From: Rubellimicrobium sp.
GTDB taxonomy: Bacteria > Pseudomonadota > Alphaproteobacteria > Rhodobacterales > Rhodobacteraceae
NCBI GenBank assembly: GCA_019454835.1
Contig: JACFNP010000033.1
Location: 1-37,616, forward strand
Direction: 5' to 3'
DNA: 37,616 nucleotides
The position numbers and the translations under genes were made by a program. Below are positions 1,308 to 26,493 of this stretch, piece by piece (within the stretch, counting starts at the first letter, position 1; each line of letters starts with the position of its first letter). The notes under the pieces are model-generated. The model had not been told where the DNA came from. It was given only the letters and a program-made list of their open reading frames with translations, and did not search any database.

Positions 1308-1443
1308 GGGCGGTCGGGCACGCAAACACCCGTCATTGCGAGGAGGCGAAGCCGACGAAGCAACCCCGATGTCGTGAGTGAGCGGTCGGGGTTGCTTCGG
1401 CTTCGCCTCGCAATGACGGGATATGCAGTTCGCCTGCTCACCC
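1308..1443 (+). repeat. Palindromic intergenic element, copy A
   Basis: The core runs from 1329 (CCCGTCATTGCGAGG) to 1420 (CTCGCAATGACGGG). Inner arms GGCGAAGCCGACGAAGCAACCCCG and its near complement enclose an asymmetric centre, GATGTCGTGAGTGAGCG, which defines the plus orientation used here. The outer arms are degenerate on the left (GGCGGTCGGGCACGC) and short on the right (GATATGCAGTTCGCC). It fills the divergent space between the racemase-family gene and the regulator, so it lies in a likely promoter region. Confidence 0.9.
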
Positions 1444-1540
1444 CCCGCCCGCCTGTCCCGTGCTTGTCTTCGGCACCGCTTCATCCTACAAACCGCGTGA
1501 CATGAACGGAAGGCGACGTGCCGTGACCCGAGGCCAGCGG

Positions 1541-2353
1541 ATGGCGCCCGACACCCGCAACATCCCCCGTGCCCGCCGCCCGCGACTGGCGGGTGTCATC
1601 GAGTTTCGCGGCGTCCTGGGCGGTGCGGTGGCCGAACTGGGCCAGCGGATCGTCGCGGGCGAGTGGCAGCCGGGTGAAAGCATCCCGCGCGAACCCGACC
1701 TCTGCGCCGAACTGGGCATCAGCCGCTCGATCATGCGCGAGGCGATGCGGGTTCTGGGTGCGAAGGGGCTGGTCCGCAGCCGCACCTCGGACGGCACCCG
1801 CGTCACCGCGCGCGCGGAATGGCGGCTGCTCGATCCCGACGTGATGGACTGGCGCATCCGCGCGGGCGACACCGAGGACCTGCTGCGCGACCTGCTGCGG
1901 GTGCGGCTGGTGCTCGAGCCGGGGATCGTGCGCATGGCCACGCTGTGCGCGGATGATGCCGCCCGCGCGAAGATTGCCGCCGCCTGGGCCGACAAGGTCG
2001 CGGTCTACACGACGCCCGACGCCGATTACGCCGAACGTCGCCGCCGCTTCATCGAGACCGACCTCGCCTTTCACCACGCATTGCTCGAGGCGACGGGGTC
2101 GCAGCTTCTCGACCAGCTTTTCGCGGTCACGCAGGCCGCTTTGCGGCTGCTGCTCGACGTGCAGATGCGCGCGCGCGGCTACGAGAGCGAGATGATCGGC
2201 ATGGAAGAAAGCCACCAGTTGCACGAGGCGGTGTTTGTCGCATTCGAGCGGCGCGACGCGCCGGGCGCACAGGCGGCGATGGAGCGGCTGCTCGAATGTG
2301 CCATCGCCGATGCGCGCGCCGGGCTTGCGGTGCGCGCGCGGGACGCGGAATAA
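1541..2353 (+). CDS. FadR/GntR-family transcriptional regulator
   Basis: About 270 aa. An N-terminal winged helix-turn-helix of GntR type (GEWQPGESIPREPDLCAELG, then SRSIMREAMRVLGAKGLV) is followed by an FCD ligand-binding domain with its metal/ligand histidines in DLAFHHALLEATGS and SHQLHEAVFVAFERRD. Regulators of this subfamily often control sugar-acid or amino-acid catabolism and bind a small carboxylate. ATG 1541 follows GAGG at fair spacing; GTG 1523 (after GGAAGG) and ATG 1502 are alternatives in frame. The SMP-30 gene begins 13 bases after its stop, so the two are likely cotranscribed and the lactonase is a probable target. The effector cannot be told from sequence. Confidence 0.88.
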   Translation: MAPDTRNIPRARRPRLAGVIEFRGVLGGAVAELGQRIVAGEWQPGESIPREPDLCAELGISRSIMREAMRVLGAKGLVRSRTSDGTRVTARAEWRLLDPDVMDWRIRAGDTEDLLRDLLRVRLVLEPGIVRMATLCADDAARAKIAAAWADKVAVYTTPDADYAERRRRFIETDLAFHHALLEATGSQLLDQLFAVTQAALRLLLDVQMRARGYESEMIGMEESHQLHEAVFVAFERRDAPGAQAAMERLLECAIADARAGLAVRARDAE

Positions 2354-2365
2354 GGAGACCGGAAC

Positions 2366-3268
2366 ATGACCATGACTGCCGAATGTGTGCTCGACTGCCG
2401 CAACAGCCTGGGCGAGGGCATCATCTGGGACGCCGCCGAACAGGTGCTCTGGTGGGTCGATGTGCCGATGCCCTCGGCGATCCACCGCCTTGACCCGGTC
2501 TCGGGCGATCACCGCACCTGGCCGTGCCCCGAGATCGTCACCGCGCTGTCGAAGCGGCGCGACGGTACGCTGCTGGTGGCCTCGCATCACGGGTTGAACG
2601 TGTTCGATCCGAAGGACGGCAGCCTGAAGCGTGTGGCCGCGCCCGAGGCCGACAAGCCGCAGAACCGCTCGAACGACGGCGACACCGATCCGGCGGGGCG
2701 GTTCTGGTTCGGCACCATGTGCAACAACATCGGCGCGGACGGCAGCGACATCGGGGTCGCCGAAAATTCGGGCGTCCTCTACCGGGTCGGCGCCGACATG
2801 GTGCCGGTGCCGATGCTGGGCGGCATCGGCATCTACAACGCCACCTGCTTCGCGCCCGACGGCCGGACGATGTATTTCGCCGACACGATGGCCGACACGA
2901 TCTGGGCCTGCGATCTGGACCCGGCGCTCGGCGCGCTCTCGAACCGCCGCGTGCTGTCGGACGACACGGGCCACGGCCACCCCGACGGCTGCACCGTCGA
3001 TGCCGAGGGCTACCTGTGGAGCGCGCGCTGGGAAGGGTCGTGCGTGCTGCGCATCGCGCCCGACGGGCGCATCGACCGCAAGATCGAGGTGCCCGCCGCG
3101 CGGATCACCTGCTGCGCCTTCGGCGGCGCCGATCTGGACACGCTGTATATCACCAGCTCGCGGGCGAACCTGCCTGCGGACGAGCTGGCCCGCACCCCGC
3201 AGGCGGGCGGCATCTTTGCGGTGCGCCCCGGCGTGAAGGGCGTGGCGGCGCCGCAGTTCGCGGGCTGA
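2366..3268 (+). CDS. SMP-30/gluconolactonase-family sugar lactonase
   Basis: 300 aa, the normal size of a six-bladed SMP-30/regucalcin-type propeller that hydrolyses sugar lactones to aldonic acids in the cytoplasm. Expected metal ligands are present: Glu17 in SLGEGIIWD, Asn158 in IYNATCFAPDG and Asp207 in GHPDGCTVD; Asn103 in NRSNDGD fits the substrate-contact site. AAGGAG lies 8-13 bases ahead of ATG 2366. It directly follows the FadR-type regulator. The sugar (gluconate, arabinonate, galactonate or other) is not shown by the sequence, and no dehydratase or aldolase of such a pathway lies nearby. Confidence 0.88.
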   Translation: MTMTAECVLDCRNSLGEGIIWDAAEQVLWWVDVPMPSAIHRLDPVSGDHRTWPCPEIVTALSKRRDGTLLVASHHGLNVFDPKDGSLKRVAAPEADKPQNRSNDGDTDPAGRFWFGTMCNNIGADGSDIGVAENSGVLYRVGADMVPVPMLGGIGIYNATCFAPDGRTMYFADTMADTIWACDLDPALGALSNRRVLSDDTGHGHPDGCTVDAEGYLWSARWEGSCVLRIAPDGRIDRKIEVPAARITCCAFGGADLDTLYITSSRANLPADELARTPQAGGIFAVRPGVKGVAAPQFAG

Positions 3269-3347
3269 CGCCCGCCGCTTGCCTGCCGGTCGCCCGAAAA
3301 TCGCCCCGGCGCCGGTCGCAACGGCTGGCCCCGGCGGCGCGAGGCGC

Positions 3348-3353
3348 TAGAAT
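3348..3353 (+). promoter_or_regulatory. Possible -10 box (TAGAAT) for a near-leaderless transcript
   Basis: TAGAAT lies six bases before the ATG at 3360, so a start site 6-7 bases on would place the message start at the start codon. No good -35 is seen at the right distance. The nearest Shine-Dalgarno-like GAGG (3341) is too far for normal use. Weak, single-motif evidence. Confidence 0.25.
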
Positions 3354-3359
3354 GGCTGC

Positions 3360-4043
3360 ATGACGCTCTGGAGCCGGATCAGCGCCGCCCTCTCCGCGCT
3401 TCGCCAAGGCGAGGGGCTGGCTTCGGTGTTCGACCGGCTGCGCAACCCGCCCGAGCGCACCGTCGCCTTCACCATCGCGGTGATCGCGCTGGGCGCCAAG
3501 ATCGCCAAGGCCGACGGCCAGGTCACCCGCGCCGAGGTGGTGGCCTTCCGCGAAATCTTCCGCATCGGCCCCGAGGACGAGGCGAACGCCGCCCGTGTCT
3601 ACGATCTGGCCCGGCAGGACGTGGCGGGTTACCGCGACTATGCCGCGCGGATCGCCACGCTCTTTGCCGACCAGCCCGCGCTGCGCGAGGAGGTGCTGGA
3701 CGGCCTGTTCCACATCGCGCTGGCCGATGGCCGCTATCACGACGGCGAGGATGCGATGCTGGCCGATGTCGCGGCGATCCTGGGCCTCGACGACCGGACC
3801 TTCATGCGGATGCGCGCCCGTTTCGTCCCCGAGGCCCGCCGCGACCCCTGGGACGTGCTGGGTGTGGCGCGTGACGATCCGCCCGAGGTGATCCGCGCCG
3901 CCTGGGCGCGGCTGGTGCGCGAATCGCATCCCGATCACCTGATCGCGCAGGGGCTGCCCGTCGAGGCGGTGCGTATGGCCGAGGCCCGTCTCGTCGCGGT
4001 GAACCGCGCCTGGGAGGAAATCAGCCGCAGGCAGGCAGGGTAG
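3360..4043 (+). CDS. DjlA-like protein: TerB-like domain plus C-terminal J domain
   Basis: 227 aa. Residues about 40-150 match the TerB-like helical domain of DjlA (acidic AKADGQVTRAEV and ALADGRYHDGED repeats). Residues about 162-227 form a short J domain with the HPD motif at 190-192 (ESHPDHL), the site that stimulates Hsp70/DnaK ATPase. Unlike enterobacterial DjlA it has no clear N-terminal transmembrane anchor; its first 35 residues look soluble. A DnaK co-chaperone role is inferred from the HPD motif. The next gene starts two bases after its stop, so they probably share a transcript. Confidence 0.85.
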   Translation: MTLWSRISAALSALRQGEGLASVFDRLRNPPERTVAFTIAVIALGAKIAKADGQVTRAEVVAFREIFRIGPEDEANAARVYDLARQDVAGYRDYAARIATLFADQPALREEVLDGLFHIALADGRYHDGEDAMLADVAAILGLDDRTFMRMRARFVPEARRDPWDVLGVARDDPPEVIRAAWARLVRESHPDHLIAQGLPVEAVRMAEARLVAVNRAWEEISRRQAG

Positions 4044-4045
4044 GG

Positions 4046-5071
4046 ATGCTGCGGCTCGCCACCTGGAATGTCGAATGGTTCGACCATCTCTTCGACGACG
4101 ACGGCAGGCTTCTCGACGATGCCGAATGGTCGGGCCGCCGTGACGTGACCCGCGAGGACCAGATCGCCGCGGTCGGTGTCATCCTGCGCGAGATCGACGC
4201 CGATGCCGTCATGGTGATCGAGGCGCCTGCCGAGAATCACCGGCGCTCGACCGTGCGGGCGCTCGAGACATTCGCCGCGCATTTCGACCTGCGGGCGCGC
4301 AGGGCCGTGATCGGCTTTCCGAACCACACCCAGCAGGAAATCGCCTTTCTCCACGACCCCGACCTGATGGGCGCGCGCCATGACCCGCGCGGCAGGCCGA
4401 CCAGCAAGAAGGGCGCCACCGGCGCGCCGCGCTTTGACGGCGTGTTCCGCATCGACATGGACGAGGACGGCAAGGACGATCTCGTAACCTGGTCGAAGCC
4501 GCCGCTGGAGCTTGCGGTCGAGACCCGCAGCGGCGTGGACCTGCGGCTCATCGGGGTCCATGCGAAGTCGAAGGCCCCGCACGGCGCGCGCGGACCGGCG
4601 GACGCCATGCGCATCTCGATCGAGAACCGCCGCAAGCAGCTTGCGCAATGCGCCTGGCTGCGGGCGCGGGTGGACCAGCATCTTGCTGCCGGGCAGTCGC
4701 TGATGGTGATGGGCGATTTCAACGACGGCCCCGGCCTGGACGCCTACGAAAAGCTGTTTGGTCGCTCGGGTGTCGAGATCGTTGCAGGCGGCGAGGACGA
4801 GGTGCCGATGTTCGACCCCAACGTGCACCGCGCCCTGACCCGCCGCTTCACTGCGCCGCCGGTCACCTCGCGCTTCACCTTGCCCTCGGGCGAGGTGATG
4901 TCGGCGCTGCTCGACTATATCATGGTCTCGCCCGACCTGCGCGAACACCTGCCGCGCTGGCAGATCTGGCACCCCTGGGACAACCCGGCCTGCGTGACGA
5001 CCCCGATGATGCGCGACGCGCTGCTGACGGCATCGGACCATTTCCCGCTGACGCTGGATATCGAGGTTTAA
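4046..5071 (+). CDS. Endonuclease/exonuclease/phosphatase (EEP) fold protein
   Basis: 341 aa. Motifs of the EEP fold in order: TWNVEWF (residues 5-11), a metal-binding glutamate in MVIEAP, GVHAKSK, MGDFNDGPG with the catalytic Asp/Asn pair, and C-terminal SDHFPLTLDI with the Asp-His pair. This is a divalent-metal phosphoesterase; whether it cuts DNA, RNA or a lipid or inositol phosphate cannot be said. No signal peptide, so probably cytoplasmic. It is close-coupled to the J-domain gene and its stop overlaps the stop of the convergent methylase gene (TTAA, 5068-5071). Confidence 0.85.
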   Translation: MLRLATWNVEWFDHLFDDDGRLLDDAEWSGRRDVTREDQIAAVGVILREIDADAVMVIEAPAENHRRSTVRALETFAAHFDLRARRAVIGFPNHTQQEIAFLHDPDLMGARHDPRGRPTSKKGATGAPRFDGVFRIDMDEDGKDDLVTWSKPPLELAVETRSGVDLRLIGVHAKSKAPHGARGPADAMRISIENRRKQLAQCAWLRARVDQHLAAGQSLMVMGDFNDGPGLDAYEKLFGRSGVEIVAGGEDEVPMFDPNVHRALTRRFTAPPVTSRFTLPSGEVMSALLDYIMVSPDLREHLPRWQIWHPWDNPACVTTPMMRDALLTASDHFPLTLDIEV

Positions 5072-5787
5072 CCCCGATCCGGCAGGCCGATGTAGATCAT
5101 CACCTCGTAAAAGGCGAAACTGCGCGTGCGGATGCGGTCGAGTTCGGCCACGCGCAGGCGGATCACCTCGCTGTCGGGCCAGCCTGCGCGCACGACGAGG
5201 GCGATTTCGGTCTCGGGCGGGTAGAGTGCCGCGATCCGGTCCAGATGCAGGGGCAGGTCCAGTCCCATGCAGAACAGCACCCAGCGCTCGGGCAGGCAGG
5301 CGGGATCGGCCTGCATCAGCGCCTCCAGCCCCGACAGGCGCAGCCGCTGGTCGAGTTCGTCCAGCAGCGGCACCCCGAGCAGCGCATTGGCGGCGTTGAA
5401 GCTGGAGACGCCCGGCACCAGTACCGGGTCCAGGAGGGCAAAGGCATCGAGATAACCGCGATAGGGGCTGAACAGCGCCATGTCGCCCGATTCCAGCAGC
5501 ACGATGCACCGGCCCGCCGCATGGGCGGCATTGATGCGGGCGCGCATGGCATCCTCGATGGCGCGCGCCTCGTCCTCGGAGCGGTTGCGGCGCGCCATCC
5601 AGGTGAACAGGCCGTGGCCACCGTCGATCACCTCCTTGCCCGCCAGATCGGCGGCAAAACGGTCGCGCTGGGCGGGCGAGGCGATGACCAGATCGGCGCC
5701 CTGCAGGAGGCGCAGGCCCCGCAGCGTTATGTTGTCACGCGCGCCCGCGCCTGCGTTGACGATGAAGAAGCGGCCTGAATCCGGCAT
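5068..5787 (-). CDS. Tetrapyrrole (uroporphyrin/corrin) methylase-family protein
   Basis: About 239 aa from ATG 5787. The N-terminal FFIVNAGAGARDNITLRGLRLLQGADLVI is the first strand-loop of the SAM-dependent tetrapyrrole methylase fold (20-residue window at 6-34), and LLESGDMALFSPYRG plus LVPGVSSFNAANALLG are the next two SAM-site loops. The overall layout is closest to precorrin-4 C11-methyltransferases (CobM/CbiF), but the gene stands alone rather than in a cob cluster and some loops differ (AGAG for the usual GAGPGD), so the substrate may not be a corrin intermediate. ATG 5811 is an alternative start; neither has a clear ribosome site. Convergent with the EEP gene. Confidence 0.75.
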   Translation of the reverse strand: MPDSGRFFIVNAGAGARDNITLRGLRLLQGADLVIASPAQRDRFAADLAGKEVIDGGHGLFTWMARRNRSEDEARAIEDAMRARINAAHAAGRCIVLLESGDMALFSPYRGYLDAFALLDPVLVPGVSSFNAANALLGVPLLDELDQRLRLSGLEALMQADPACLPERWVLFCMGLDLPLHLDRIAALYPPETEIALVVRAGWPDSEVIRLRVAELDRIRTRSFAFYEVMIYIGLPDRG

Positions 5788-5940
5788 GGAGCATTTTTCG
5801 TTCTGGAGCATGTCGCACAAAGACGGGAACCGGTCTGCGCTTCTCGGACATGCGAGGTCAAAAGGCCAGAGGGGGTGGGTGAATGCGAGAGCACATCACG
5901 TTTCCATGGTGCGTGCCCGCACAGGCGGCTACATGCACAA

Positions 5941-6501
5941 TTAATTGTCGAATTTAACCTTCCCTCGGAAGCGATCTAACAAGAAGTCAGTTGGGCGCTT
6001 TACCAGATCGTCTGCGGTTCTCCAAAGGGATTTAACCAGGAAGGGTGTTCGTGGCGCATCCTTACCTGGTGCAGATGGGTAACGAAGAGGATAGCCGTCT
6101 TCACCATGCAGCCTTCCGAGCGCCACAACATACTCCTCAATGAGCGGGAGGATGTCCTCGTTCTCGCCCGGAACATCAATATATAATGGGTTTTCCCGAT
6201 CTGCCTGCACAACTAAATTAGCATTGGCATAGACATGGTCTCGCACAGGTTCGCACAGCTCTTGCGACCACAGATCAGCAACGCCGTGCCCTTTCCGGCC
6301 TTTTGTTGGGGGATCACCACCATTCAGAAGGATACTGGCTTTAAGCAATAGTTCAAGTCCATGCCCTGCTAGTGCAAGGGTGGGAACGAACAGTATCTTC
6401 CCCTTTCTTGGTCGAGCTTCATCAAGTGTGAGGGCGCCCTCCAGAAATTGTTTTGCAAGAGCCGCATGTTGGCCTGCATCTGTTACTAAAAAATCTTCCA
6501 A
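5941..6501 (-). CDS. Hypothetical protein, possibly HEPN-like
   Basis: 186 aa from TTG 6501, which has GGAGAAGG just upstream. The segment FVPTLALAGHGLELLLKASI followed by GGDPPTKGRKGHGVADLW resembles the helical pattern of HEPN-type and related proteins (A-x-H-x-x-E-x-x-L-K, then G-H-x-x-x-x-L-W), some of which are RNases or abortive-infection components. No R-x4-6-H catalytic motif is obvious, so RNase activity is not claimed. Base composition is clearly more AT-rich than the flanks, and it stands alone between core genes, suggesting recent arrival. No partner gene (nucleotidyltransferase or antitoxin) is seen. Confidence 0.6.
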   Translation of the reverse strand: MEDFLVTDAGQHAALAKQFLEGALTLDEARPRKGKILFVPTLALAGHGLELLLKASILLNGGDPPTKGRKGHGVADLWSQELCEPVRDHVYANANLVVQADRENPLYIDVPGENEDILPLIEEYVVALGRLHGEDGYPLRYPSAPGKDAPRTPFLVKSLWRTADDLVKRPTDFLLDRFRGKVKFDN

Positions 6502-6784
6502 TGCCTTCTCCGGTTATTGTGATCTCTCGTCCTGTAATATTGTAAAATCTCGAAGAGTCTTGACTGATACGTAATTCTGAAGCCAGTGGAGTGATATGAA
6601 AAACACTCATGCGTGAGCGCTTCCATAGATTGATTAACTGTTTCAATGGTATAACTGAACATTGTGGCAATCGGCGCGTTGTATTTCTTGACTTGAATCC
6701 GTACCCGGCTTATCTGGTCAGCGTAGCCCCGGACCCGCCTCTGCCGCAAGGCATGCGGCCGGGGCGTTGGCTTTTCGGCCCCCC
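6502..6784. other. AT-rich intergenic stretch, no convincing gene
   Basis: Left two thirds share the low GC of the 186-aa gene and probably arrived with it. On the minus strand two overlapping frames are open here: about 60 codons starting at 6658 (MFSYTIETVNQ...) and a frame from about 6610 (MSVFHITPLASELRIS...). Neither has a ribosome site or a family I recognise. The last 60 bases are GC-rich and fold weakly past the 3' end of ppx without a T-run. Confidence 0.4.
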
Positions 6785-8329
6785 TCACTCCCGCAAGGTC
6801 AGGCGCGCGTCGGCGTCCATTGCCTTGCCCAGCGCGCGGAAGCGGGCGTCGGCGACCTCGCCCCACAGCGGGCGGGCGCGTTCCTCGAGCACCAGTTCCA
6901 GTTCGCGCGCCGCCGGGCGCCAGATGAAGGCCCCCGGCGCATCATGCGCGCCAAGCCAGAGCATCGCGCCCAGGCGCATGGCGCGGCCCAGCACTTCGGC
7001 GATGCGGCGCGTGTCGGGGGTGAGCAGGGCGAACATCGGCTCGTGGCGCGGCACCCGGCGGCGGCTGGAATAGCGGTGCATCAGCGCGAGGCCCAGAAAC
7101 ACCCGCTCCTTGTGCTTCAGCCCGCCGAGATTGGCGCGCGTCACGTTGTCGAGGCAAGCTTCGGCGCGATAGTCGGGATGCGCGCGCCAGTTCACGTCAT
7201 GGAGCAGGCAGGCGGCGCGGATGATGCGCAGGTGCTGCCAGTCGGCATCGGGGAACAGCGGTCGCACGAAATCGAACAGCACGTCGCCGAACCCCGGCAT
7301 CCGCGCGTCGCGGGCTTCCGCAAAGCGGCAGCTCTCGATCAGCGGGTCGGCGGCGCGCAGGTCGCGCGGCATCCGCTCGAACAGCAGGCCCTCGCGCAGG
7401 CCATAGGCCGACACGGCGATGTCGCGCGGGCGGAAGCGGTGGACGAATTCGTCCAGCACCGCCATCGCCTGCGGCACGACGGCCAGCCGGTCCTGCGACA
7501 GGCTGATGCGCGTGCCGAGCGTGCCCATGTCGGCAGCCTCGACATAGGCGCGGGTCGCGCGGACCGCCTCCATGTCGGTGCGGTATTCGTGGATCACGGT
7601 CAGCGGCCATTGCCGCCGTTCCATGTCGATGCGGGCAAAGGCCCGCCAGGCGCCGCCGACAAGGAACAGCCGCCCGCCCTCGGGGCCGCCCATCGCCACG
7701 TGCATCCGGTCGATCTCGTCCGCGATCCGCGTCTCGCGCGCCGCCTCGCCGTCGATTTCCTTCAAGGACAGCGGCCCGAGCAGGGCGCTGGCGCGCGCGC
7801 CGACCTCGCCATGCGCGAGGCTGGCGAGTTCCATCGAGACCCCGCCCATGTCGCAGACCAGACCATAGCTTCCGGGCCAGCCGAGCAGCACGCCCTGCGC
7901 GGCCAGCCGCGCCTCGGTGTCGCCGGGGATCACATGGATGGTGATGCCGGTGCGGGCGCGGGCCTCGTCGCAGAAGGCGGCGCCGTCTGCGGCCTCGCGC
8001 ACGGCGGCGGTGGCAACGGCGCTGAGCGGCGGCAGGTTCATGCCCCGGCCCAGCGCGGCGAACCGCTCGAGCGCCTCGAGCGCGCGCCTGCGCCCGTCCG
8101 GGTTCAGGCGCCCGGTTTCGGCAAGGCCGCGCCCGAGGCCGCACATCACCTTTTCGTTGAAGAAATAGGCCGGGCTGCGCGCCGCGCCGTCGAAGACCAC
8201 GAAGCGGACCGAGTTCGACCCCACGTCGATGACGCCAAGCCGCTCCATCGCCAGCGTGACGGGATCGCGCGCGAGCGGTTCCGATAGACCGCCCCAGTCG
8301 GCGCCGGTGATATCGAGTGCCGCGTTCAC
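6785..8329 (-). CDS. ppx: Exopolyphosphatase, Ppx/GppA family
   Basis: 514 aa. N-terminal actin-like ATPase/phosphatase fold: IDVGSNSVRFVVFDG (about 34-48) is phosphate loop 1, and LVCDMGGVSMELA is the second. The C-terminal half contains an HD-type helical region (LLHDVNWRAHPDYRAE), as in full-length Ppx and GppA. It releases phosphate from polyphosphate ends or hydrolyses pppGpp. The start is GTG 8329, overlapping the ppk stop (GTGA), so it is translationally coupled to ppk; an in-frame ATG at 8245 would remove the first 28 residues, which lack family features. Pairing with ppk makes exopolyphosphatase the better name. Confidence 0.92.
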   Translation of the reverse strand: MNAALDITGADWGGLSEPLARDPVTLAMERLGVIDVGSNSVRFVVFDGAARSPAYFFNEKVMCGLGRGLAETGRLNPDGRRRALEALERFAALGRGMNLPPLSAVATAAVREAADGAAFCDEARARTGITIHVIPGDTEARLAAQGVLLGWPGSYGLVCDMGGVSMELASLAHGEVGARASALLGPLSLKEIDGEAARETRIADEIDRMHVAMGGPEGGRLFLVGGAWRAFARIDMERRQWPLTVIHEYRTDMEAVRATRAYVEAADMGTLGTRISLSQDRLAVVPQAMAVLDEFVHRFRPRDIAVSAYGLREGLLFERMPRDLRAADPLIESCRFAEARDARMPGFGDVLFDFVRPLFPDADWQHLRIIRAACLLHDVNWRAHPDYRAEACLDNVTRANLGGLKHKERVFLGLALMHRYSSRRRVPRHEPMFALLTPDTRRIAEVLGRAMRLGAMLWLGAHDAPGAFIWRPAARELELVLEERARPLWGEVADARFRALGKAMDADARLTLRE

Positions 8330-12773: not shown

Positions 12774-12783
12774 GCATTTCGCA

Positions 12784-12803
12784 GTCAAACGGGAACGTTT
12801 GAC
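12784..12803. terminator. Perfect hairpin GTCAAACG-GGAA-CGTTTGAC
   Basis: Eight-base arms around a GGAA tetraloop, 11 bases past the stop of the 93-aa protein. No T-run follows, so termination is possible but unproven. It touches the left outer arm of repeat copy B and may belong to it. Confidence 0.4.
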
Positions 12804-12805
12804 GC

Positions 12806-12947
12806 CAGGGCAACCGGGCGAACAACATCTTCCGTCATTGCGAGGAGGCGAAGCCGACGACGCAACCCCGATGTTGCGTGTGAGCGGTCGAGGTTGCTTC
12901 GGCTTCGCCTCGCAATGACGGGATATGCGGTGCGCCCGATTGCCCTG
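12806..12947 (+). repeat. Palindromic intergenic element, copy B (best-preserved outer arms)
   Basis: Core 12832-12921. This copy shows the full symmetry: left outer arm CAGGGCAACCGGGCGAACA, right outer arm TGCGCCCGATTGCCCTG, nearly complementary. Centre GATGTTGCGTGTGAGCGG, plus orientation. The long stem is interrupted only by the centre and a few mismatches. It lies between a plus-strand gene end and a minus-strand gene end, where a strong stem would be tolerated. Confidence 0.92.
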
Positions 12948-13020
12948 CATTCGACGCCCGCGACAATGCGATGAGACAGTCAGAGCGGGCCCGCCGAATC
13001 CGTGAAAACGCGACCCGCCC
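12948..13020 (+). repeat. Tail sequence shared with the flank of copy D
   Basis: CATTCGACGCCCGCGACAATGCG opens this stretch and ATCCGTGAAAACGCGACCCGCCC closes it (each is a longer window; key blocks are GACGCCCGCGACAATGCG and ATCCGTGAAA). The same two blocks, at almost the same distance, lie right of copy D at 17591-17667. It ends six bases before the stop of the minus-strand gene at 13027. Confidence 0.75.
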
Positions 13021-15274: not shown

Positions 15275-15348
15275 GGCGGTATCCTCGTGGCGTGACCGCA
15301 TGGCTAGCCCGACGGGGACCGTGCGGCAATAGTCCGGGTGGTCGCGGG

Positions 15349-15520
15349 GGGCAGTCGGGCGCGCGGCATGTTCCGTCATTGCGAGGAGCCGCAGGCGACG
15401 CGGCAAGCCCGATGTCGTGTGCGAGCGGTCGGGGTTGCTTCGGCTTGCGCCTCGCAATGACGGGATGTGCGGGCGGCGGTGCCGCCCCAGCCCGCGCAGG
15501 GCAGTTCGCCCGATTGCGCC
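15349..15520 (+). repeat. Palindromic intergenic element, copy C (long right arm)
   Basis: Core 15373-15463, plus orientation by its centre (GATGTCGTGTGCGAGCGG). The left arm is short (GCAGTCGGGCGCGCGGCATGTT). The right arm is the long form: GGGATGTGCGGGCGGCGGTGCCGC..., then CAGCCCGCGCAGGGCAGTTCGCCCGATTGCGCC, about 35 bases longer than in A, B and D. It sits upstream of gcdH and upstream of the secreted-protein gene's promoter. Confidence 0.9.
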
Positions 15521-15594
15521 GCACTGTGGTCGCGGGGCTTTGGGGCCGGATGACCCCGCCGGACCCCCCCCCGCCCCGCCCCCGGAAATAACCG

Positions 15595-16973: not shown

Positions 16974-17396
16974 ATGAAGAAGAGTGTTGTCTGGATCATC
17001 GTCGCGATCGTCGTCATCGGCGGCGGCTGGTGGTGGTATGCCGCCGACCAGGCCAAGAAGGCCGCCGAAGCCGCCGCTGCGGCGCAGGCGCAGGCCGAAG
17101 CAGCCGCCCAGGCCGAGGCTGACGCAGCCGCGCAGGCCGCCGCCGAGGCCGAGGCCGCCGCCCAGGCCGAAGCCGAAGCCGCCGCTGCGGACGCCGCCGC
17201 CGCCGCCGACCAGGCCGCCGACACCGTCGAGGATGCCGCTGACGCCGCTGCCGATACGGCCGCCGACGCCGTCGATGCCGCGACCGACGCCGCCAATGAT
17301 GCCGCCGCCGCCGTCAGCGATGCCGTGGATGCCGCCACCGACGCGGTGAACGACGCCGTGAACGAGGCGACCGGCACCGAGGATGCGCAGCAGTAA
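16974..17396 (+). CDS. Ala-rich, membrane-anchored repeat protein
   Basis: 140 aa. A short basic start (MKK), one transmembrane helix at about 5-22 ([18 protein letters not shown]), then about 115 residues almost wholly of Ala, Asp, Glu and Gln with a few Lys. Residues 28-80 follow A-E-A-A-A-Q-A-type heptads; 80-135 follow repeats such as [14 protein letters not shown]. This predicts one long acidic helix or coiled coil in the periplasm, held in the inner membrane. The low-complexity repeats could arise by slippage. No known family; it resembles spacer or cell-envelope stalk proteins in general character only. A strong terminator follows. Confidence 0.75.
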
Positions 17397-17482: not shown

Positions 17483-17590
17483 AGGCTGCCCGCAGGCGAC
17501 GCGGCAACCCCGATGTCGTGTGTGAGCGGTCGGGGTTGCTTCGGCTTCGCCTCGCGGGTGACGGAACATGCCGTTCGCGCGATTGCCCCG
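17483..17590 (+). repeat. Palindromic intergenic element, copy D (left end eroded)
   Basis: Core from about 17483 to 17564, plus orientation (centre GATGTCGTGTGTGAGCGG). The left CCGTCATTGCGAG end is gone, replaced by GCAGGCTGCC next to the terminator. The right end is changed to CTCGCGGGTGACGG and is followed by the short outer arm AACATGCCGTTCGCGCGATTGCCCC. Confidence 0.82.
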
Positions 17591-17667
17591 CATTTGACGC
17601 CCGCGACAATGCGCAGGAACAAAGGGTCAGCGCGAGTCGGTCGCATCCGTGAAACCGCGATCCGCCC
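17591..17667 (+). repeat. Tail sequence shared with the flank of copy B
   Basis: Contains TTGACGCCCGCGACAATGCG, GGGTCAGCGCG and ATCCGTGAAACCGCGATCCG, matching the tail at 12948-13020 block for block. It ends where the rplI terminator begins. Confidence 0.75.
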
Positions 17668-19793: not shown

Positions 19794-19886
19794 CCCGTCA
19801 TTGCGAGGCGCAAGCCGAAGCAACCCCGACCGCTCGCGCACGACATCGGGGTTGCTTCGTCGCCTGCGGCTCCTCGCAATAAGGGG
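19794..19886 (-). repeat. Palindromic intergenic element, copy E (reverse orientation)
   Basis: Starts CCCGTCATTGCGAGG and ends CTCGCAATAAGGGG, so the right terminus has decayed from CAATGACGGG. The centre reads GACCGCTCGCGCACGACATC, the reverse of copies A-D and F. It lies 18 bases past the stop of the membrane protein gene and about 100 bases before tRNA-Pro. Confidence 0.88.
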
Positions 19887-19983: not shown

Positions 19984-20060
19984 CGGGGCGTAGCGCAGTC
20001 TGGTAGCGCATCTGCTTTGGGAGCAGAGGGTCGGGAGTTCGAATCTCTCCGCCCCGACCA
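19984..20060 (+). tRNA. tRNA-Pro (anticodon UGG)
   Basis: 77 bases folding as a full cloverleaf. Acceptor stem CGGGGCG / CGCCCCG with discriminator A and an encoded CCA end. D-stem GCGC / GCGC with loop AGTCTGGTA, anticodon stem TCTGC / GCAGA with loop TTTGGGA (anticodon TGG at 20018-20020), five-base variable loop, and T-loop TTCGAAT. Reads CCA and, by wobble, other Pro codons. Confidence 0.97.
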
Positions 20061-20347: not shown

Positions 20348-20363
20348 CCACAAGATATGGTGT
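20348..20363 (+). promoter_or_regulatory. NrdR box upstream of nrdJ
   Basis: CCACAAGATATGGTGT agrees with the 16-base NrdR consensus (ACACWATATATWGTGT) at about 13 positions and is itself nearly palindromic. NrdR is the ATP-cone repressor of ribonucleotide reductase genes. NrdR usually binds two boxes about three helical turns apart; I find only one good box here. Confidence 0.7.
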
Positions 20364-20496
20364 CCGGGCATAGGCGGAACCAGACCGGATCAGCGGGCGG
20401 CGAAACCCCTTTCGAGGGGGCGATGCCCCATGCCCGGCGGCTCCTTGGGAACGGCAACCAGATGCCGCGCAAGGCGGTGCGAGAGGGAACGGGCAG

Positions 20497-23400
20497 ATGC
20501 GGATCGAGCGGCATTACACGGGCGCAGAGGGCGAACTGGATGCGGTCTATGCGGGCTTCGGCTGGCGCGCGGTCACTTCGGAGATTCGCAACCCCGACGG
20601 CTCGGTGGTGTTCCGGCTGGAAAATGTCGACGTGCCCGAAGGCTGGAGCCAGGTTGCCGCCGATGTCATCGCCCAGAAGTATTTCCGCAAGGCGGGCGTG
20701 CCCTCGGCCACCAGGCGCGTGAAGGAAAAGGGCGTGCCGGTCTGGCTGCAACGCTCGGTCCCGGCCCAAGGCGCGACCTTCGGCGGCGAGACCAGCGCCC
20801 GGCAGGTCTTCGACCGGCTGGCGGGGGCCTGGACCTACTGGGGCTGGAAGGGCGGCTATTTCAGCAGCGAATCGGACGCCCGCGCCTATTTCGACGAGAT
20901 GCGCCACATGCTGGCCGCGCAGGTCGCGGCGCCCAACTCGCCGCAATGGTTCAACACCGGCCTTCACTGGGCCTACGGCATCGACGGCCCGGCGCAGGGG
21001 CACCATTACGCCGACCACCTGACCGGTGAGGTGCGCCTGTCGGAATCGGCCTACGAACATCCCCAGCCGCACGCCTGCTTCATCCAGTCGGTCGCCGATG
21101 ATCTGGTGAACGAGGGCGGGATCATGGACCTCTGGGTCCGCGAGGCGCGGCTGTTCAAATACGGCTCGGGCACCGGCACCAACTTTTCCAGCTTGCGCGG
21201 CGAGGGCGAGGCGCTGTCGGGCGGCGGGCGCTCCTCGGGGCTGATGGGCTTTCTCAAGATCGGCGACCGCGCGGCGGGCGCGATCAAGTCGGGCGGCACC
21301 ACGCGGCGCGCGGCCAAGATGGTGATCGTCGATGCCGACCACCCCGACATCGAGGAATTCATCGACTGGAAGGTGATCGAGGAGCAGAAGGTCGCCAGCC
21401 TCGTCGCCGGATCGAAGATGCACGAACGGATGCTCAACGCCGTCTTCGCCGCGCTGCGCGGCTGGGACGGGCGCGACGAGGACCGTTTCGACCCCGCGCT
21501 GAACCCCGCGCTGAAGGCCGCGATCCGCGAGGCCAAGCGTTCGGCGGTGCCCGAGGCTTACGTCAAGCGCGTGCTCGATTACGCGCGGCAGGGGTTCGAC
21601 CATGTCGAATTCCCGACCTGGGATACCGACTGGGATTCCGAAGCCTATGCCACCGTCGCGGGCCAGAATTCCAACAACACGGTGCGGGTGACCGATTCCT
21701 TCCTGCGCGCGGTCGAGGCGGGCGGCGACTGGCACCTGCGCGCCCGCGTCACCGGCGAGGTGACGCGCACCATGAAGGCGCGCGATCTGTGGGACAAGAT
21801 CGGTCACGCCGCCTGGGCCTGCGCCGACCCCGGCCTGCAGTTTCACGACACGATCAACGCCTGGCACACCTGCCCGGAAGACGGCGCGATCCGGGCCTCG
21901 AACCCGTGCTCGGAATACATGTTCCTTGACGACACCGCCTGCAATCTGGCGTCGATGAACCTGCTGACCTTCCTCGGGAAGGACGGCGTCGATTCCGCCG
22001 CCTTCGTCCATGCGACGCGGCTGTGGACCGTCACGCTGGAAATCTCGGTGATGATGGCACAGTTCCCGGCGCGCGAGATCGCCCGCCTGTCCTGGCAGTT
22101 CCGCACCCTCGGGTTGGGCTATGCCAATGTCGGCGGCCTTCTGATGAACCTCGGCCTGCCCTACGATTCGCGCGAAGGCCGCGCGCTCTGCGGGGCGCTG
22201 TCGGCGATCATGACCGGCGTGGCCTATGCGACCTCGGCCGAGATGGCGGGCGAGCAGGGCGCCTTCGCCGGTTTCGCGCGCAACCGCGACCACATGCTGC
22301 GGGTGATCCGCAACCACGCCCGCGCCGCGAAGGGCGAGGCCGAGGGCTACGAGGGGCTGGCGATCCCGCCGGTGCCGCTCGATCACGCGGGCTGCCCCGA
22401 TGCGCGGCTGGTCGCCATCGCCGAAGCCGCCTGGGCCGAGGCGCTGGCGCTGGGCGAGGCCAACGGCTTTCGCAACGCGCAGGTCACGGTGATCGCGCCC
22501 ACCGGCACCATCGGGCTGGTGATGGACTGCGACACCACCGGGATCGAGCCGGATTTCGCGCTGGTGAAGTTCAAGAAGCTGGCGGGCGGCGGCTATTTCA
22601 GCATCATCAACCAGTCGGTGCCCGCCGCGCTGGTGCGGCTGGGCTATGCGCCCGCGCAGGTCGAGGAAATCGTGGCCTATGCGGTGGGCCACCGCACGCT
22701 TGGCAACGCGCCCGGCGTGAACCATACCGCGCTGATCGGCCACGGCTTCGGCGCGGATGAATTGAAGCGCATCGAGGCGGCGCTGGCGCAGGCCTTCGAC
22801 ATCCGCTTCGTGTTCAACGCCTGGACGCTGGGGCAGGAGTTCTGCGAAAAGACCCTGGGCATTCCGGCAGCGAAGATGGCCGATCCCGGCTTCGATCTGC
22901 TGCGGCATCTGGGGTTCACCCGCGCGCAGATCGAGGCGGCGAATGACCATGTTTGCGGCACGATGACGCTGGAAGGCGCGCCGCATCTGAAGCCGGAACA
23001 TCTGGCGGTGTTCGACTGCGCCTCGCCCTGCGGGCGCCGGGGCACGCGTTCGCTGTCGGTCGAAAGCCACATCCGCATGATGGCCGCCGCGCAACCCTTT
23101 GTTTCCGGGGCGATTTCCAAGACGATCAACATGCCCAACGCCGCCACGATCACCGACGTGCAGGCCGCCTATGAAATGTCGTGGAAGCTGGGGATCAAGG
23201 CCAACGCGCTTTACCGCGACGGGTCGAAGCTGAGCCAGCCGCTCGCGGCGTCATTGGTCGAGGACGACGACGAGGCCGAGGAGGTGCTGGCCACCGGCTC
23301 GACCCCGGAAAAGGTCGCGGTGCTGGCCGAGAAGATCGTCGAGAAGATCGTGGTGCGCGAGCTGCGCAGCCACGACCGCGAACGGATGCCGCAGCGCCGC

Positions 23401-24123
23401 AAGGGCTATACGCAAAAGGCGATGGTCGGCGGCCACAAGGTCTATCTGCGCACCGGCGAATATGCCGACGGGCGGCTGGGCGAAATCTTCATAGACATGC
23501 ACAAGGAAGGCGCGGGCTTCCGGGCGATGATGAACAACTTCGCCATCGCGATCAGCGTCGGGCTGCAATACGGCGTGCCGCTGGAAGAATTCGTCGACGC
23601 CTTCACCTTCACCCGCTTTGAACCGGCGGGGATGGTGCAGGGCAACGATTCGATCAAGCAGGCGACCTCGATCCTCGACTACGTGTTCCGCGAACTGGCG
23701 GTGAGCTATCTTGATCGCACCGACCTGGCCCATGTGAAGCCCGAGGGCCACAGCTTCGACGAACTGGGCGGCGGCGCGCATGAAGGCCGCGCCAATATCG
23801 CGCCGGTCAGCGACGATGCCGCGTCACGCTCGCTGGCGGTGCTGAAGCAGATTTCGTCCTCGGGCTACCTGCGCCACCGCCTGCCGGACGAATTGCTGGT
23901 CCTGCAGGGCGGCATGGCGGCGATGCAGCCGCACCGGGTCGAGACGACCCTGCATGAAAGCACCTCGGTCACCGCCATCGCCACCACGATGAGCGCCCGC
24001 GACAAGGCCCGCATCCAGGGCTTCGAGGGCGACCCCTGCGGCGAATGCGGCAACTACACGCTGGTCAGGAACGGCACCTGCATGAAGTGCAACACCTGCG
24101 GCGGCACGAGCGGCTGTAGCTGA
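20497..24123 (+). CDS. nrdJ: Adenosylcobalamin-dependent ribonucleotide reductase (class II)
   Basis: 1208 aa, full length for the large alphaproteobacterial NrdJ. Reduces ribonucleotides to deoxyribonucleotides using a thiyl radical made from coenzyme B12, so it works with or without oxygen. Core motifs: [30 protein letters not shown] (first redox cysteine), [43 protein letters not shown] (radical Cys and base Glu, a 21-residue window), [19 protein letters not shown] (loop 2 region) and [14 protein letters not shown]. The C-terminus is a zinc-ribbon-like tail with cysteine pairs ([29 protein letters not shown]) that reloads reducing power. ATG 20497 has GAGAGGGAAC upstream. cobS and cobT lie 3 kb downstream. 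Confidence 0.97.
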
Positions 24124-24180
24124 AGGGGCGGGGGGCTTTGCCCCCCGGCCCGTCCCGGGCCTCCCCCCAGGATATTTGTG
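24124..24180. repeat. Rhodobacterales-type GC-rich intergenic motif
   Basis: GGGGGGCTTTGCCCCCCGG, GTCCCGGGCCTCCCC and CCCAGGATATTTG in order. I recall near-identical strings (ending AGGATATTT) after many genes in Rhodobacteraceae genomes; that is memory, not a search. Contains two nested stems (GGGGGGC-TTT-GCCCCCC and GGCCCGTCCCGGGCC). Confidence 0.55.
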
Positions 24181-24190
24181 AAAAGGTGAA

Positions 24191-24211
24191 GGGGCAGGCG
24201 GCACCTGCCCC
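24191..24211. terminator. Hairpin between nrdJ and bpt
   Basis: Stem GGGGCAGG / CCTGCCCC with loop CGGCA, followed on the plus strand by GTTTCG. It is 68 bases past the nrdJ stop and 12 bases past the bpt stop on the other strand. No long T-run. Confidence 0.5.
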
Positions 24212-24222
24212 GTTTCGCCGTG

Positions 24223-25044
24223 TCACCCCTTGGCCGGGCGCAGGTCGGGCAGGGTGATGCGCGCCACCTGTTCGGCAACTGGTTCGACCGACAGCGGATG
24301 CGCGGCCTGCGGGAAATGCGCCGGGTCGTGCACCTCCTGCCACTTGCCGCCCGCATAGACTTCGAGCGGGTGGAAGCGCGCCTTGTAGCCCATGCGCGCG
24401 CTGCCGGGCACCCAGTAGCCCAGATAGACATGCGGCAGCGCCATCCCGGTGGCGATGCCGATGTGATCGAGGATCAGGAACGTGCCGGGGCTGGTGGCGG
24501 CGCGGGACGGGTCGAAGAAGGAATAGACCATCGACACCCCGTCATCGAGAATGTCGGTCAGGCAGACCGCCACAAGCTCGCGCGTGGCGCGGTCGCGGTA
24601 TTCGACGAGACGGGTGTTGACCGGCGTTTCCTCGACCATGGCGGCATATTCCATCAGCGTCATGTCGGCCATGCCGCCGTCGGCATGGCGGCTGTCGAGA
24701 TAGCTGCGGAACAACGAGAACTGCTCGCGCGTGGCGCGCGGCGCGATGATGCGGCGGCGCAGGTCCGCGTTGCGGTGCAGCACGCGGCTCTGGTTGCGCG
24801 AGGGTTTGAAGTCGCGCGCGCGGATTCGCGCCGAGAGGCAGGCGGTGCAATCACCGCACGAGGGCCGGTAGAGCACGTTCTGGCTGCGCCGGAACCCCTG
24901 TTTGGACAGCGAGTCGTGCAGCGCGCCCGCATGTTCGCCCTGCATGGCGGTGAACAGCTTGCGTTCGGTCCGGCCCGGCAGGTAGGGGCAGGGCTGCGGT
25001 GCCGTGACGAAGAATTGCGGGGCAACAGGAAGCGAATGGCGCAT
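24223..25044 (-). CDS. bpt: Aspartate/glutamate leucyltransferase (Bpt)
   Basis: 273 aa. Bpt moves leucine from Leu-tRNA to N-terminal Asp or Glu, marking proteins for ClpS/ClpAP in the N-degron pathway. N-terminal domain with the cysteine set [16 protein letters not shown] and [17 protein letters not shown]-terminal GNAT-like domain with [21 protein letters not shown] strand and [22 protein letters not shown]. The ATG at 25044 ([13 protein letters not shown]) matches the usual family start; an ATG at 25089 would add 15 residues not typical of the family. Convergent with nrdJ. Confidence 0.93.
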
Positions 25045-25157
25045 GGAAGGCTTCGGTCTGTAAGCGGCGGATGACTGGCTGGCAGGCATGGAAGCCGGGC
25101 GGGCCGCACCAGACTAGCAGCGCGGGCGGGCGAGGCCAAGAAAAACGTGGCCTCGGG

Positions 25158-25333
25158 CGGGCAACCGGGTGCGCGGCCATATTCCCGTCATTGCGAGGAG
25201 GCGAAGCCGACGAAGCAACCCCGATGTTGTGTGCGAGCGGTCGGGGTTGCTTCGGCTTCGCCTCGCAATGACGGGAGTTTTCGGGCGGCGGCGTCATTCC
25301 GGCCCGCGCGCGGCCGTTTGCCCGGCTGCCCCG
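25158..25333 (+). repeat. Palindromic intergenic element, copy F (long right arm)
   Basis: Core 25184-25275 with perfect termini (CCCGTCATTGCGAGG, CTCGCAATGACGGG) and plus orientation. The left outer arm GGGCAACCGGGTGCGCGGCCATATT is short. The right arm is the long form (GGGCGGCGGCGTCATTCC, then GTTTGCCCGGCTGCCCCG). It ends five bases before the stop of the RDD gene. Confidence 0.92.
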
Positions 25334-25338
25334 TCACC

Positions 25339-25776
25339 TCAGGCGGGGCGGTTCACCATCGCGGTGCCGAGAACCAGGTCGGTCAAACCCTGTCCCCGCC
25401 CGAGCGCCGCCATCAGCAGCACCGAGATCACCTGCAGGGGCGGGATGAGGAACGACAGGTAAAGCCCTGCCACATGAAGCAAAGCCGTCCCGGCGCGCAG
25501 GCGCAGCCCGTCGGATTCGCGCAACTCCAGCGCCATGAGCCGCATCCCCCAGGTGGCCGACCCCCGGCGCAGGGTCAGGACGCGGTAGATGAAGCCGATG
25601 ACGCTCCAGAACAGCGGAAAGAAGAACAGCCCGAGGAATGCCGTGAAGGGCAGCACCACCAGCGCCATCGCCAGCGTGATGATGCCGTCGACGACAAAGG
25701 CCGCAAGGCGCTTGGCGGGGACATTCGCGTAGAAGGCGGGTTCGCGGTCGGGATCGGGCAGGCCGGGGCTGCGCAT
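25339..25776 (-). CDS. RDD-family membrane protein
   Basis: 145 aa from ATG 25776, one base past the stop of the deacylase gene, so probably cotranslated. The family's Arg-Asp-Asp triad region appears as AKRLAAFVVDGIITLAMALV (Arg, then one Asp; residue 2 of the pair is changed), followed by helices at about 33-55 and 90-115 and the typical RRGSATWGMRLMALELRESDG loop (21-residue window). Three predicted transmembrane helices. RDD proteins are small transport or envelope proteins of varied role; no substrate can be given. Confidence 0.85.
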   Translation of the reverse strand: MRSPGLPDPDREPAFYANVPAKRLAAFVVDGIITLAMALVVLPFTAFLGLFFFPLFWSVIGFIYRVLTLRRGSATWGMRLMALELRESDGLRLRAGTALLHVAGLYLSFLIPPLQVISVLLMAALGRGQGLTDLVLGTAMVNRPA

Positions 25777-25777
25777 C

Positions 25778-26248
25778 TCAGGCGGTGAAACCGGCGGCGA
25801 CGGCGCCGCTGGCCCGCGCGATGTCCTGCGGTGCTGCGGCAAAGACATGGCGCGGCGTGCCCGCCGCCGCCCAGACCGTATCGAAGTCGAGAAGCCGCCG
25901 GTCCATCCACACCGGCACCTGTTGCACCAGCCCCACGGGCGAGACCCCGCCGATGGCGAAACCCGTCTGTGCGCGCACCGTATCGGCATCGGCCCGGACC
26001 AGCGCCTCGCCCGCCAGCGCCGCCGCCCTGGCCGCATCGACGCGCTTGCTGCCCGCCGTCAGGAACAGGAACACCCGCCCCGAGGCGGCGCCCTGGAAGA
26101 TCATGCTCTTGACGATCTGGTCGATCCCGCAACCCACCGCCGCCGCAGCGTCTTCGGCCGTGCGCGTGCCCTCGGCCATCTCGAGCGGGACCGAGGCGAT
26201 CCGCGCTTCGGCAAGCGCGCGGGTGACACGGGCGAGGCTTCGGGACAT
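25778..26248 (-). CDS. YbaK/ProX-type aminoacyl-tRNA deacylase
   Basis: 156 aa, the usual size of free-standing YbaK/ProXp trans-editing domains, which clear mischarged tRNA (for example Cys- or Ala-tRNA-Pro). Motifs: IDQIVKSMIFQG with the conserved lysine, LFLTAGSKRVD, and the GFAIGGVSPVG loop that shapes the amino-acid pocket. ATG 26248 follows GGAGACC. The gene lies upstream of the RDD gene. Which mischarged tRNA it acts on cannot be decided by eye. Confidence 0.88.
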   Translation of the reverse strand: MSRSLARVTRALAEARIASVPLEMAEGTRTAEDAAAAVGCGIDQIVKSMIFQGAASGRVFLFLTAGSKRVDAARAAALAGEALVRADADTVRAQTGFAIGGVSPVGLVQQVPVWMDRRLLDFDTVWAAAGTPRHVFAAAPQDIARASGAVAAGFTA

Positions 26249-26322
26249 GGGCAGGTCTCCGTGGCGGGATCACCGGGGCAATCGAACACCGCAGGCGGCG
26301 GGTTGCAAGCCCGGTGTCGTGC

Positions 26323-26493
26323 CGGGGTGATCGGGCGAATGGCTCTGCGCGGGCTGACACGGCATCGCCGCCCGCAAATCCCGTCATTGCGAACGGAGTG
26401 AAGCAACCCCGACCTCTCGCGCGTGACATCGGGGTTGCTTCGTCGGCTTCGCCTCCTCGCAATGACGGAATATGTCGTTCGCCCGATTGCCCC
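26323..26493 (-). repeat. Palindromic intergenic element, copy G (reverse orientation, long arm)
   Basis: Core 26380-26468. The centre GACCTCTCGCGCGTGACATC gives reverse orientation. The left inner arm is shortened (GCGAACGGAGTGAAGCAACC). The outer arm on its left is the long form, reading as the complement of copy C's right arm; the right outer arm is short (AATATGTCGTTCGCCCGATTGCCCC). Lies between the deacylase gene and the 92-aa gene. Confidence 0.92.

Follow-up and report, generated by a model that had tools for sequence, protein, structure and literature searches.

REP-like hairpin dimers in a Rubellimicrobium genome and their predicted carriage by ISAs1-type miniature transposons

The stretch of DNA analysed here, hereafter the window, comprises positions 1 to 37,616 of contig JACFNP010000033.1 (G000:C73) of a Rubellimicrobium sp. 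draft genome (G000; 2.87 Mb in 76 contigs, 94% complete), and its subject is a recurring palindromic element. The core of this element is a pair of inverted hairpins of approximately 86 bp that resembles a dimer of repetitive extragenic palindromic (REP) sequences, and in some copies the core lies between outer arms. A sequence-only reading of the window had described seven copies, and we found all seven at their sites. The 11-mer GTCATTGCGAG matched 12 times in the window with at most one mismatch (shuffled mean of 1.06, maximum of 4), and both 10-base core ends were intact in five cores, at 1332-1417, 12834-12919, 15375-15461, and 25187-25272 (all on the plus strand) and at 26383-26466 (minus strand). 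Outer arms were present on both sides at four copies (12806, 15347, 25157, and 26323) and on the right side only at 17483; by eye, those at 1308 were decayed and those at 19794 were absent. The features of the window are given below, with mismatches of the terminal inverted repeats (TIRs) counted relative to CAGGGCAATCGGGCG.

1332..1417, plus strand: REP-like dimer core, outer arms decayed (about 1308-1443)
12774..12970, plus strand: other palindromic repeat family (GCATTTCGCAGTCAAATG..CATTTGACGCCCGCGACAATGCG), interrupted by a predicted miniature transposon; uninterrupted elsewhere, e.g., L033 near 2270
12796..12805, no strand: target duplication (10 bp), left copy CGTTTGACGC
12806..12947, plus strand: predicted complete miniature transposon with both TIRs (1 and 0 mismatches) and one REP-like dimer; 10-bp flanks CGTTTGACGC and CATTCGACGC, 2 mismatches
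12834..12919, plus strand: REP-like dimer core, long arm on left
12948..12957, no strand: target duplication (10 bp), right copy CATTCGACGC
15347..15521, plus strand: predicted miniature transposon, core 15375-15461, extra 32-nt hairpin module on right; TIR mismatches 3 and 2; no 10-bp duplication abutting the ends, with GTGGTCGCGG recurring a few bases outside both ends (by eye)
17483..17588, plus strand: decayed copy, left arm without foot, right end GCGGGTGAC, right TIR retained; right-hand remnant of split host repeat at 17591-17613
19797..19883, minus strand: REP-like dimer core lacking outer arms, with a mutated right end (CGCAATAAGGG; end approximate)
25157..25333, plus strand: predicted miniature transposon, diverged, core 25187-25272, with module; TIR mismatches 4 and 4; no convincing duplication
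26323..26494, minus strand: predicted miniature transposon, core 26383-26466, module on left; TIR mismatches 3 and 1; 9-base repeat with 2 mismatches

The outer arms proposed in the sequence-only reading proved to be real and are terminal inverted repeats, CAGGGCAATCGGGCG, bounding a unit of 138 to 180 bp. We analysed two samples of this single draft genome: a smaller first sample of 587 kb for 141 cores, their gene context, and arm parsing, and a larger sample of 1,092,537 bases (38% of the genome) for TIR pairs, units, and duplications. TIR pairs were defined as having at most 6 mismatches summed over both ends, a duplication was counted where a 10-bp flanking repeat had at most 2 mismatches, and TIR and core counts vary with the mismatch limits chosen. 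The arm motif matched 145 times compared with 50 in the reversed sequence. The distance from the core to the start of the TIR was usually 28 nucleotides (nt), rising to about 60 nt where that side also bore a 32-nt hairpin module. Where the arms on both sides of a unit were plain (16 units), they matched each other at 16.4 of 26 positions, slightly above the shuffled value of 15.0 (standard deviation of 0.42). This excess of motifs and their fixed distances, together with the flanking target duplications described below, indicate that the sequence beyond the core is not random.

Exact repeats of 8 within 5 nt of the arms occurred in 9 of 37 units of the smaller sample, relative to 0.3 after shuffling, and when resolved at 10 bp, 5 exact repeats were found among 30 units (shuffled mean of 0.19, maximum of 3). 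The larger sample contained 60 TIR pairs 130 to 180 bp apart, 22 of which had a 10-bp repeat, with 13 of these exact (shuffled mean of 0.64, maximum of 5). Exact repeats abutting the ends peaked at a length of 10 (13 cases), with 2 of length 8, 1 of length 11, and none of the other lengths from 6 to 13. Duplications also flanked 3 of 18 pairs 181 to 300 bp apart, but none of 185 pairs 301 to 2500 bp apart and none of the 4 pairs at 60 to 129 bp. All 25 duplication-bearing pairs held at least two core ends (at most 2 mismatches). The three duplication-bearing pairs at 181 to 300 bp each held two cores.

L038 11465-11698: two-core element, duplication with 1 mismatch
L149 3575-3833: two-core element, duplication with 2 mismatches
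L163 11976-12263: two-core element, exact duplication

Empty sites, which the sequence-only reading had proposed to seek along with duplications at the edges, were also found. With up to 4 mismatches allowed in 23 bases, a second palindromic repeat, GAGCATTTCGCAGTCAAATGGTAACATTTGACGCCCGCGACAATGCG, had 44 matches in 1.09 Mb and no match in the 392 kb compared of G001, a genome of the same genus that is 85% complete. At many of the 25 sites listed of the 44, this host repeat was uninterrupted, as in L033 near 2270 (GCATTTCGCAGTCAAATGGTAACATTTGACG). A miniature transposon splits it at L011 5827-6000, with a copy of CAGTCAAATG on each side, and also at window copies 12806 and 17483. The filled and uninterrupted copies are a within-genome empty/filled pair. 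The 10-bp target duplications and the empty site bear out, for the 138- to 180-bp unit, the earlier suggestion of a non-autonomous mobile element. By eye, the host repeat often directly follows a stop codon, at sites including L033 near 2270, L011 6001-6037, and window 12774-12970 and 17591-17613.

Between genomes, both flanks could be aligned to the 392 kb of G001 for 16 of the 141 cores, in 11 gaps, and G000 was longer in 8 of these gaps (by 130 to 1475 bases) and shorter in 3. On the Novosphingobium plasmid pSA1, a dimer occupies a 130-bp unaligned gap, and the corresponding gap in plasmid Mpl (strain PP1Y) measures 15 bp.

We considered whether the outer arms might instead be a separate palindromic repeat that served as a landing site into which cores were inserted later. 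Precedents exist in the accessible parts of one study (PMC3733652), where REP dimers are described as “inserted within” palindromes of Halothiobacillus neapolitanus and Anabaena variabilis and where the target palindrome of T. roseum also occurs alone in hundreds of copies. The orientation of the core relative to the module is also mixed in our genome, at 20 to 15 by a loose module match and 12 to 5 by eye. However, none of the 25 duplication-bearing pairs lacked core ends, and the only pairs at 60 to 129 bp, 4 in number, had no duplication. A strict rule left 6 of 29 arm pairs in the 587-kb sample free of a core, but by eye 4 of these contained a diverged core, 1 was coding sequence, and 1 was a loose 249-nt match. 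We therefore regard insertion into preexisting palindromes as improbable.

The ends and duplications point to the ISAs1 family, whose elements we take to end in CAGGG and to duplicate 8 to 10 bp, and we checked these traits on four ISAs1 elements (ISAzs15, ISAzs5, a Rhizobium tropici element, and Escherichia coli ydcC). Three of them are flanked by 10-bp duplications: Azospirillum ISAzs15 (TIR CAGGGCAATCGCTTGA) by ACGTTCCTGA twice, ISAzs5 (TIR CAGGGCTCC, ends CAGGGCTCCGAAG) by ATCTGTCCGG twice, and the R. tropici element (ends CACGGCTCTGAA) by CTGTTCGATG twice. CAGGG ends were found in ISAzs15, ISAzs5, and ydcC, and the element ends studied here, CAGGGCAATCG, are identical to the ISAzs15 end over the first 11 bases. 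As in miniature inverted-repeat transposable elements (MITEs) of the ISAs1 type, the units have CAGGG-type TIRs, a 10-bp duplication, and no transposase gene inside, and their length is approximately 138 to 180 bp, or up to 288 bp with two cores.

The 140- to 175-bp stretch that the sequence-only reading had taken as the true unit thus exists, but it is not the sole unit. After 3 of 226 units in the larger sample were excluded for lying at sequence ends, 223 were classifiable, of which 67 had both ends, 71 had one, and 85 had none, under an arm limit loose enough that about 5% of random flanks pass. A stricter count of 107 units in the 587-kb sample (159 cores including those with a diverged head; two tests per flank, each at a 1% null limit) gave arms on both sides in 37, on one side in 32, and on neither in 38. 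Among the 67 both-ended units, 22 had a duplication within 2 mismatches, 11 of them exact. Gaps between cores within arrays were mostly 9 to 17 nt, and naked cores or dimers, without outer arms, occur in other bacteria.

All copies might still have arrived by miniature transposon, with naked cores being old copies whose ends have decayed; the 71 units retaining a single end and the graded quality of the arms fit such decay. We consider this unlikely as a full account, however, since both ends were missing from 37 of the 62 arrays and from 48 of the 161 single units, the 85 end-less units had no excess of direct repeats (4 or 8 bases, offsets 0 to 5), and naked dimers are found in other bacteria. 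The shell-plus-core pattern likewise had 0 matches in a named-species collection, which was searched by exact match only and possibly does not include the genome itself. Two other ideas on naked cores were rejected: target duplications at them showed no excess, and insertion into local palindromes was not supported, with flank complementarity no better than shuffled and marginal in one class (P = 0.043).

Most of the 141 cores of the smaller sample were 84 to 89 bp, and each consisted of two inverted short hairpins with CCGTC feet outward. With 13 cores that could not be parsed into arms left out, the other 128 comprised 112 with a long and a short arm, 14 short-short, and 2 long-long. A single arm folds into a foot stem of 4 bp (TTGC/GCAA) and a 3-bp tip, with an internal loop (5x6 in the long arm, 2x3 in the short arm) between them. 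In the tip test, from which 6 of the 112 long-short pairs were excluded, the tip stem of the 106 pairs was complementary in 101 of the long arms and 103 of the short arms (shuffled long-arm mean of 51, maximum of 65). Between arms, with a further 26 pairs excluded for 7-nt short arms, the tips agreed in 47 of 80 comparable pairs, which is the shuffled level (47.7). An alignment (A1) of the 121 cores with a recognisable long arm gave the same picture. Within-arm mini-stem cells were paired in 98.1% compared with 80.0% after shuffling (standard deviation of 1.0; 0 of 500), and 107 cells were changed on both sides compared with 35 after shuffling, whereas the same columns paired across arms reached 81.1% compared with 79.5% (36 of 500). 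Because compensation was found inside arms and not between arms at the same columns, the arm hairpin appears to be the conserved unit, as in REP elements. Complementary tips could also come from quasi-palindrome correction during replication.

Long arms from other genomes and plasmids, 23 in number, had a constant frame, GTCATTGCGAGG[A/C]..GACG..GCAAT, and a variable tip that was complementary in 20 of the 23 (shuffled mean of 10, maximum of 16). Long-short pairing was rejected as a rule for all genomes: it holds at 16 of 19 loci elsewhere, but many short-short (G894, G1010) and long-long (G1026) dimers were among the matches listed, so it is a rule of this genome and not of the family. One core end reads GTCACCCGCGAG in place of GTCATTGCGAG at L024 12224-12502, L033 7050-7137, and L035 4175-4262, a recurring alternative foot.

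The earlier statement that the copies lie outside genes held in the 587-kb sample, where none of 141 cores was inside a gene predicted by our simple in-house caller. The 138 placed cores comprised 57 in convergent, 54 in tandem, and 27 in divergent gaps, and at least one core was carried by 35 of 67 convergent, 39 of 210 tandem, and 19 of 70 divergent gaps. This preference is like that reported for other REPs (PMC3733652), and the excess in convergent gaps fits either survival at least-harm sites or a role at transcript ends.

Such a role, in which the repeats were kept and spread as long-stem RNAs that end or stabilise transcripts at gene ends, would be favoured by the strong convergent excess, by the stability of the whole core as one hairpin (z = -9.8 with DNA parameters), and by one Novosphingobium plasmid slot that holds three different palindromic repeats in three strains (by eye). 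The arms were not coupled to each other at the test columns, however, 393 family genomes are without such cores, and 8 of the 11 comparable gaps in G001 are simply shorter. The transcript-stabilising stem suggested in the sequence-only reading is accordingly unsupported by covariation, in which single-arm hairpins were paired and the two arms were not, and we hold that an RNA function is very doubtful as the reason for the repeat's spread.

Several other features were noted. In the window, a tRNA gene at 19984-20057, the sole Rfam match at gathering scores, is about 100 bases from the copy at 19794, and an open reading frame (ORF) at 16974-17396 without a Pfam match contains short internal DNA repeats of GCCGAG/GCCCAG-like units. 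Two segments are absent from G001: L009 11428-12500, where two miniature transposons flank a HicB-like antitoxin and a neighbouring small ORF (HicA-like by eye), and L012 1474-3086, with two BrnA antitoxins and adjoining dimers between hslV-like and hslU-like genes. A slot after a dioxygenase gene (L115 2987-3121, L120 1836-1963, and L121 about 1835-2000) holds a GTCATTGCGAG dimer in plasmid pNL2 and, by eye, two other palindromic repeats instead in Novosphingobium ES2-1 and THN1.

The seven window sites understate the repeat: genome-wide, GTCATTGCGAG occurred exactly 1416 times (703 plus, 713 minus; 0 for the reversed control), and 624 cores had exact ends on both sides, or approximately 217 per Mb. 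In a survey of 394 genomes of the family, exact-ended cores were found only in G000 and in 0 of the other 393, and G001 had no GTCATTGCGAG 11-mer at all. Counts across a class-wide draw of 385 genomes were patchy, the next highest being 280 11-mers in 8 Mb, and a phylum-wide draw gave the exact-ended pattern in 18 of 299 genomes, namely G000 and 17 others of its class; matches in one of these 18 (G933) look by eye like chance. Related dimers were found on plasmids of Novosphingobium, Methylosinus, Methylocystis, Methylobacterium, and one cyanobacterium, and not in the phage collection searched. Three genomes (G106, G083, and G121) had 99, 91, and 50 copies of the 11-mer and no full dimer at the spacing searched; single hairpins or other spacings may exist there. 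A search for a donor using the central motif gave, among the matches listed, one Clostridia stretch with a hairpin without REP ends (by eye).

We interpret these results as two nested things, an approximately 86-bp REP-like hairpin pair and, around 67 of 223 units, predicted ISAs1-type miniature-transposon ends that likely carry the pair as cargo with the transposase supplied in trans, and we assign this reading a probability of about 0.75. On sequence grounds, about three in ten units are thus predicted to be ISAs1-like miniature transposons carrying REP-like dimers. An ISAs1-family transposase acting in trans would have cut the CAGGGCAATCG ends and inserted the element. Because all 25 duplication-bearing elements hold dimer ends, a dimer was probably captured by such an element on one or a few occasions, and the two were then amplified together. 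For naked cores and arrays, we propose a second, transposon-independent route of dimer spread that leaves no duplication; this route is predicted to recognise the single-stranded arm hairpin, as TnpA-REP/RAYT (REP-associated tyrosine transposase) does with GTAG REPs. Copies would survive mainly just past stop codons, where insertions may be least harmful.

A number of observations weigh against this interpretation. Since 156 of 223 units are without one or both ends, the transposon directly explains a minority, and 45 of the 67 both-ended units have no 10-bp duplication within 2 mismatches. The mixed core orientation is not predicted by simple co-amplification of one ancestor, and the cores differ (139 of 141 sequences distinct; mean pairwise identity of 80% over 132), so that they are not a fresh burst. 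Of the four ISAs1 elements, the R. tropici one ends in CACGG, and no duplication was seen at E. coli ydcC, whose ends are CAGGGAAAGATCA-like. A tblastn search of 38% of the genome with four ISAs1 proteins detected no ISAs1 transposase (best E value of 0.25); an autonomous ISAs1 partner may be encoded in the remaining 62%, may have been lost, or may be absent from the draft. No leading- or lagging-strand bias was observed (69:63, on a weak skew). Regarding the hairpins, the mini-stem test comprised only 6 column pairs, and the long stem had a slight excess of pairing over all 32 pairs (91.6 compared with 89.7 after shuffling), partly at its centre, where each of the two types, CCCCGA..TCGGGG and AATCCATG..CATGGATT, complements itself across the axis. 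Folding gave the whole core as one long hairpin (-38.6 kcal/mol) and a weak arm alone (-2.9 kcal/mol, z = 0.75; -4.0, z = -0.63). Thermodynamics alone therefore favours the long hairpin, and it is covariation that argues for the single-arm fold.

Other candidate movers were rejected. PF01797, the RAYT domain, was without a match in the assembly; among 25 high-copy genomes, 7 had PF01797, with exact repeat ends at 0 of 10 loci and mismatched near-ends at one. An IS110 transposase was also absent from G000.

More generally, and tentatively, at somewhat less than even odds, transposase-less REP dimers may travel as cargo of DDE miniature transposons on a foreign enzyme and then multiply by their own hairpin route. 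If carriage as cargo is correct, palindromes enclosing REP dimers in other species would be transposon ends rather than landing sites, and it would answer how transposase-less CGTC repeats keep spreading. These elements offer one carrier with visible footprints for REP-like repeats, in the form of exact ends, 10-bp duplications, and an empty site. They also reduce the question of the mover to one that can be tested at the bench with a single candidate enzyme family, and they suggest a rule for re-reading REP families elsewhere, namely to check for duplications beyond the arms that enclose the repeats.

We found no description of an ISAs1-type MITE containing a REP dimer in the accessible parts of the literature searched, which included PMC10969869, PMC12306157, PMC6006769, and PMC8049555 and held few subscription papers; searches by sequence strings listed matches that look unrelated. 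Like the ISAs1 family (ISAzs15, ISAzs5, and ISEc1/H-repeat) and MITEs derived from insertion sequences (ISs), the both-ended units share the first 11 end bases of ISAzs15 and the 10-bp duplication of ISAzs15 and ISAzs5. Unlike ISAs1 ISs, they are 138 to 180 bp, have no transposase inside, and have a REP-like dimer as their interior. A further resemblance is to the palindromes around REP dimers in H. neapolitanus and A. variabilis, which, in the accessible parts of PMC3733652, were not found alone in those two species; there, in contrast, the palindromes are read as targets, and the same parts report no target duplications.

Di Nocera 2013, as far as its text was accessible (PMC3733652), defined the CGTC REPs with no transposase beside them and left open what moves them. 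The cores studied here are like CGTC REPs in their CGTC outer ends, HH dimer form (tags outside), mostly alphaproteobacterial occurrence, position near gene ends, and lack of a dedicated transposase. As in CGTC REP families 1 to 4, an unpaired CGTC tag lies at one end (CCGTC...GACGG), with no adjacent tyrosine transposase gene. Those families have plain 8- to 9-bp stems with 4- to 5-nt loops in the parts of that paper available to us, whereas the arms here are bulged, with a 4-bp foot, a 5x6 or 2x3 internal loop, and a short 3-bp tip, and pair a long arm with a short one. Since the tag, dimer form, and class are shared but the plain stem is not, we call the core REP-like and do not file it among the CGTC families.

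Like GTAG REPs, REPINs (REP doublets forming hairpins), and BIMEs (bacterial interspersed mosaic elements) with RAYT, the cores consist of an inverted pair of hairpins with bulges like those of E. coli REPs, and they occur in arrays, extragenically, and in high copy. Unlike RAYT-mobilised REPINs, they have a CGTC rather than a GTAG foot and no Y1 transposase in G000. E. coli TnpA-REP requires, in the accessible parts of PMC8266576, a foot tetranucleotide and a bulge in the stem, and the CGTC foot and internal loops of the core parallel this foot and bulge.

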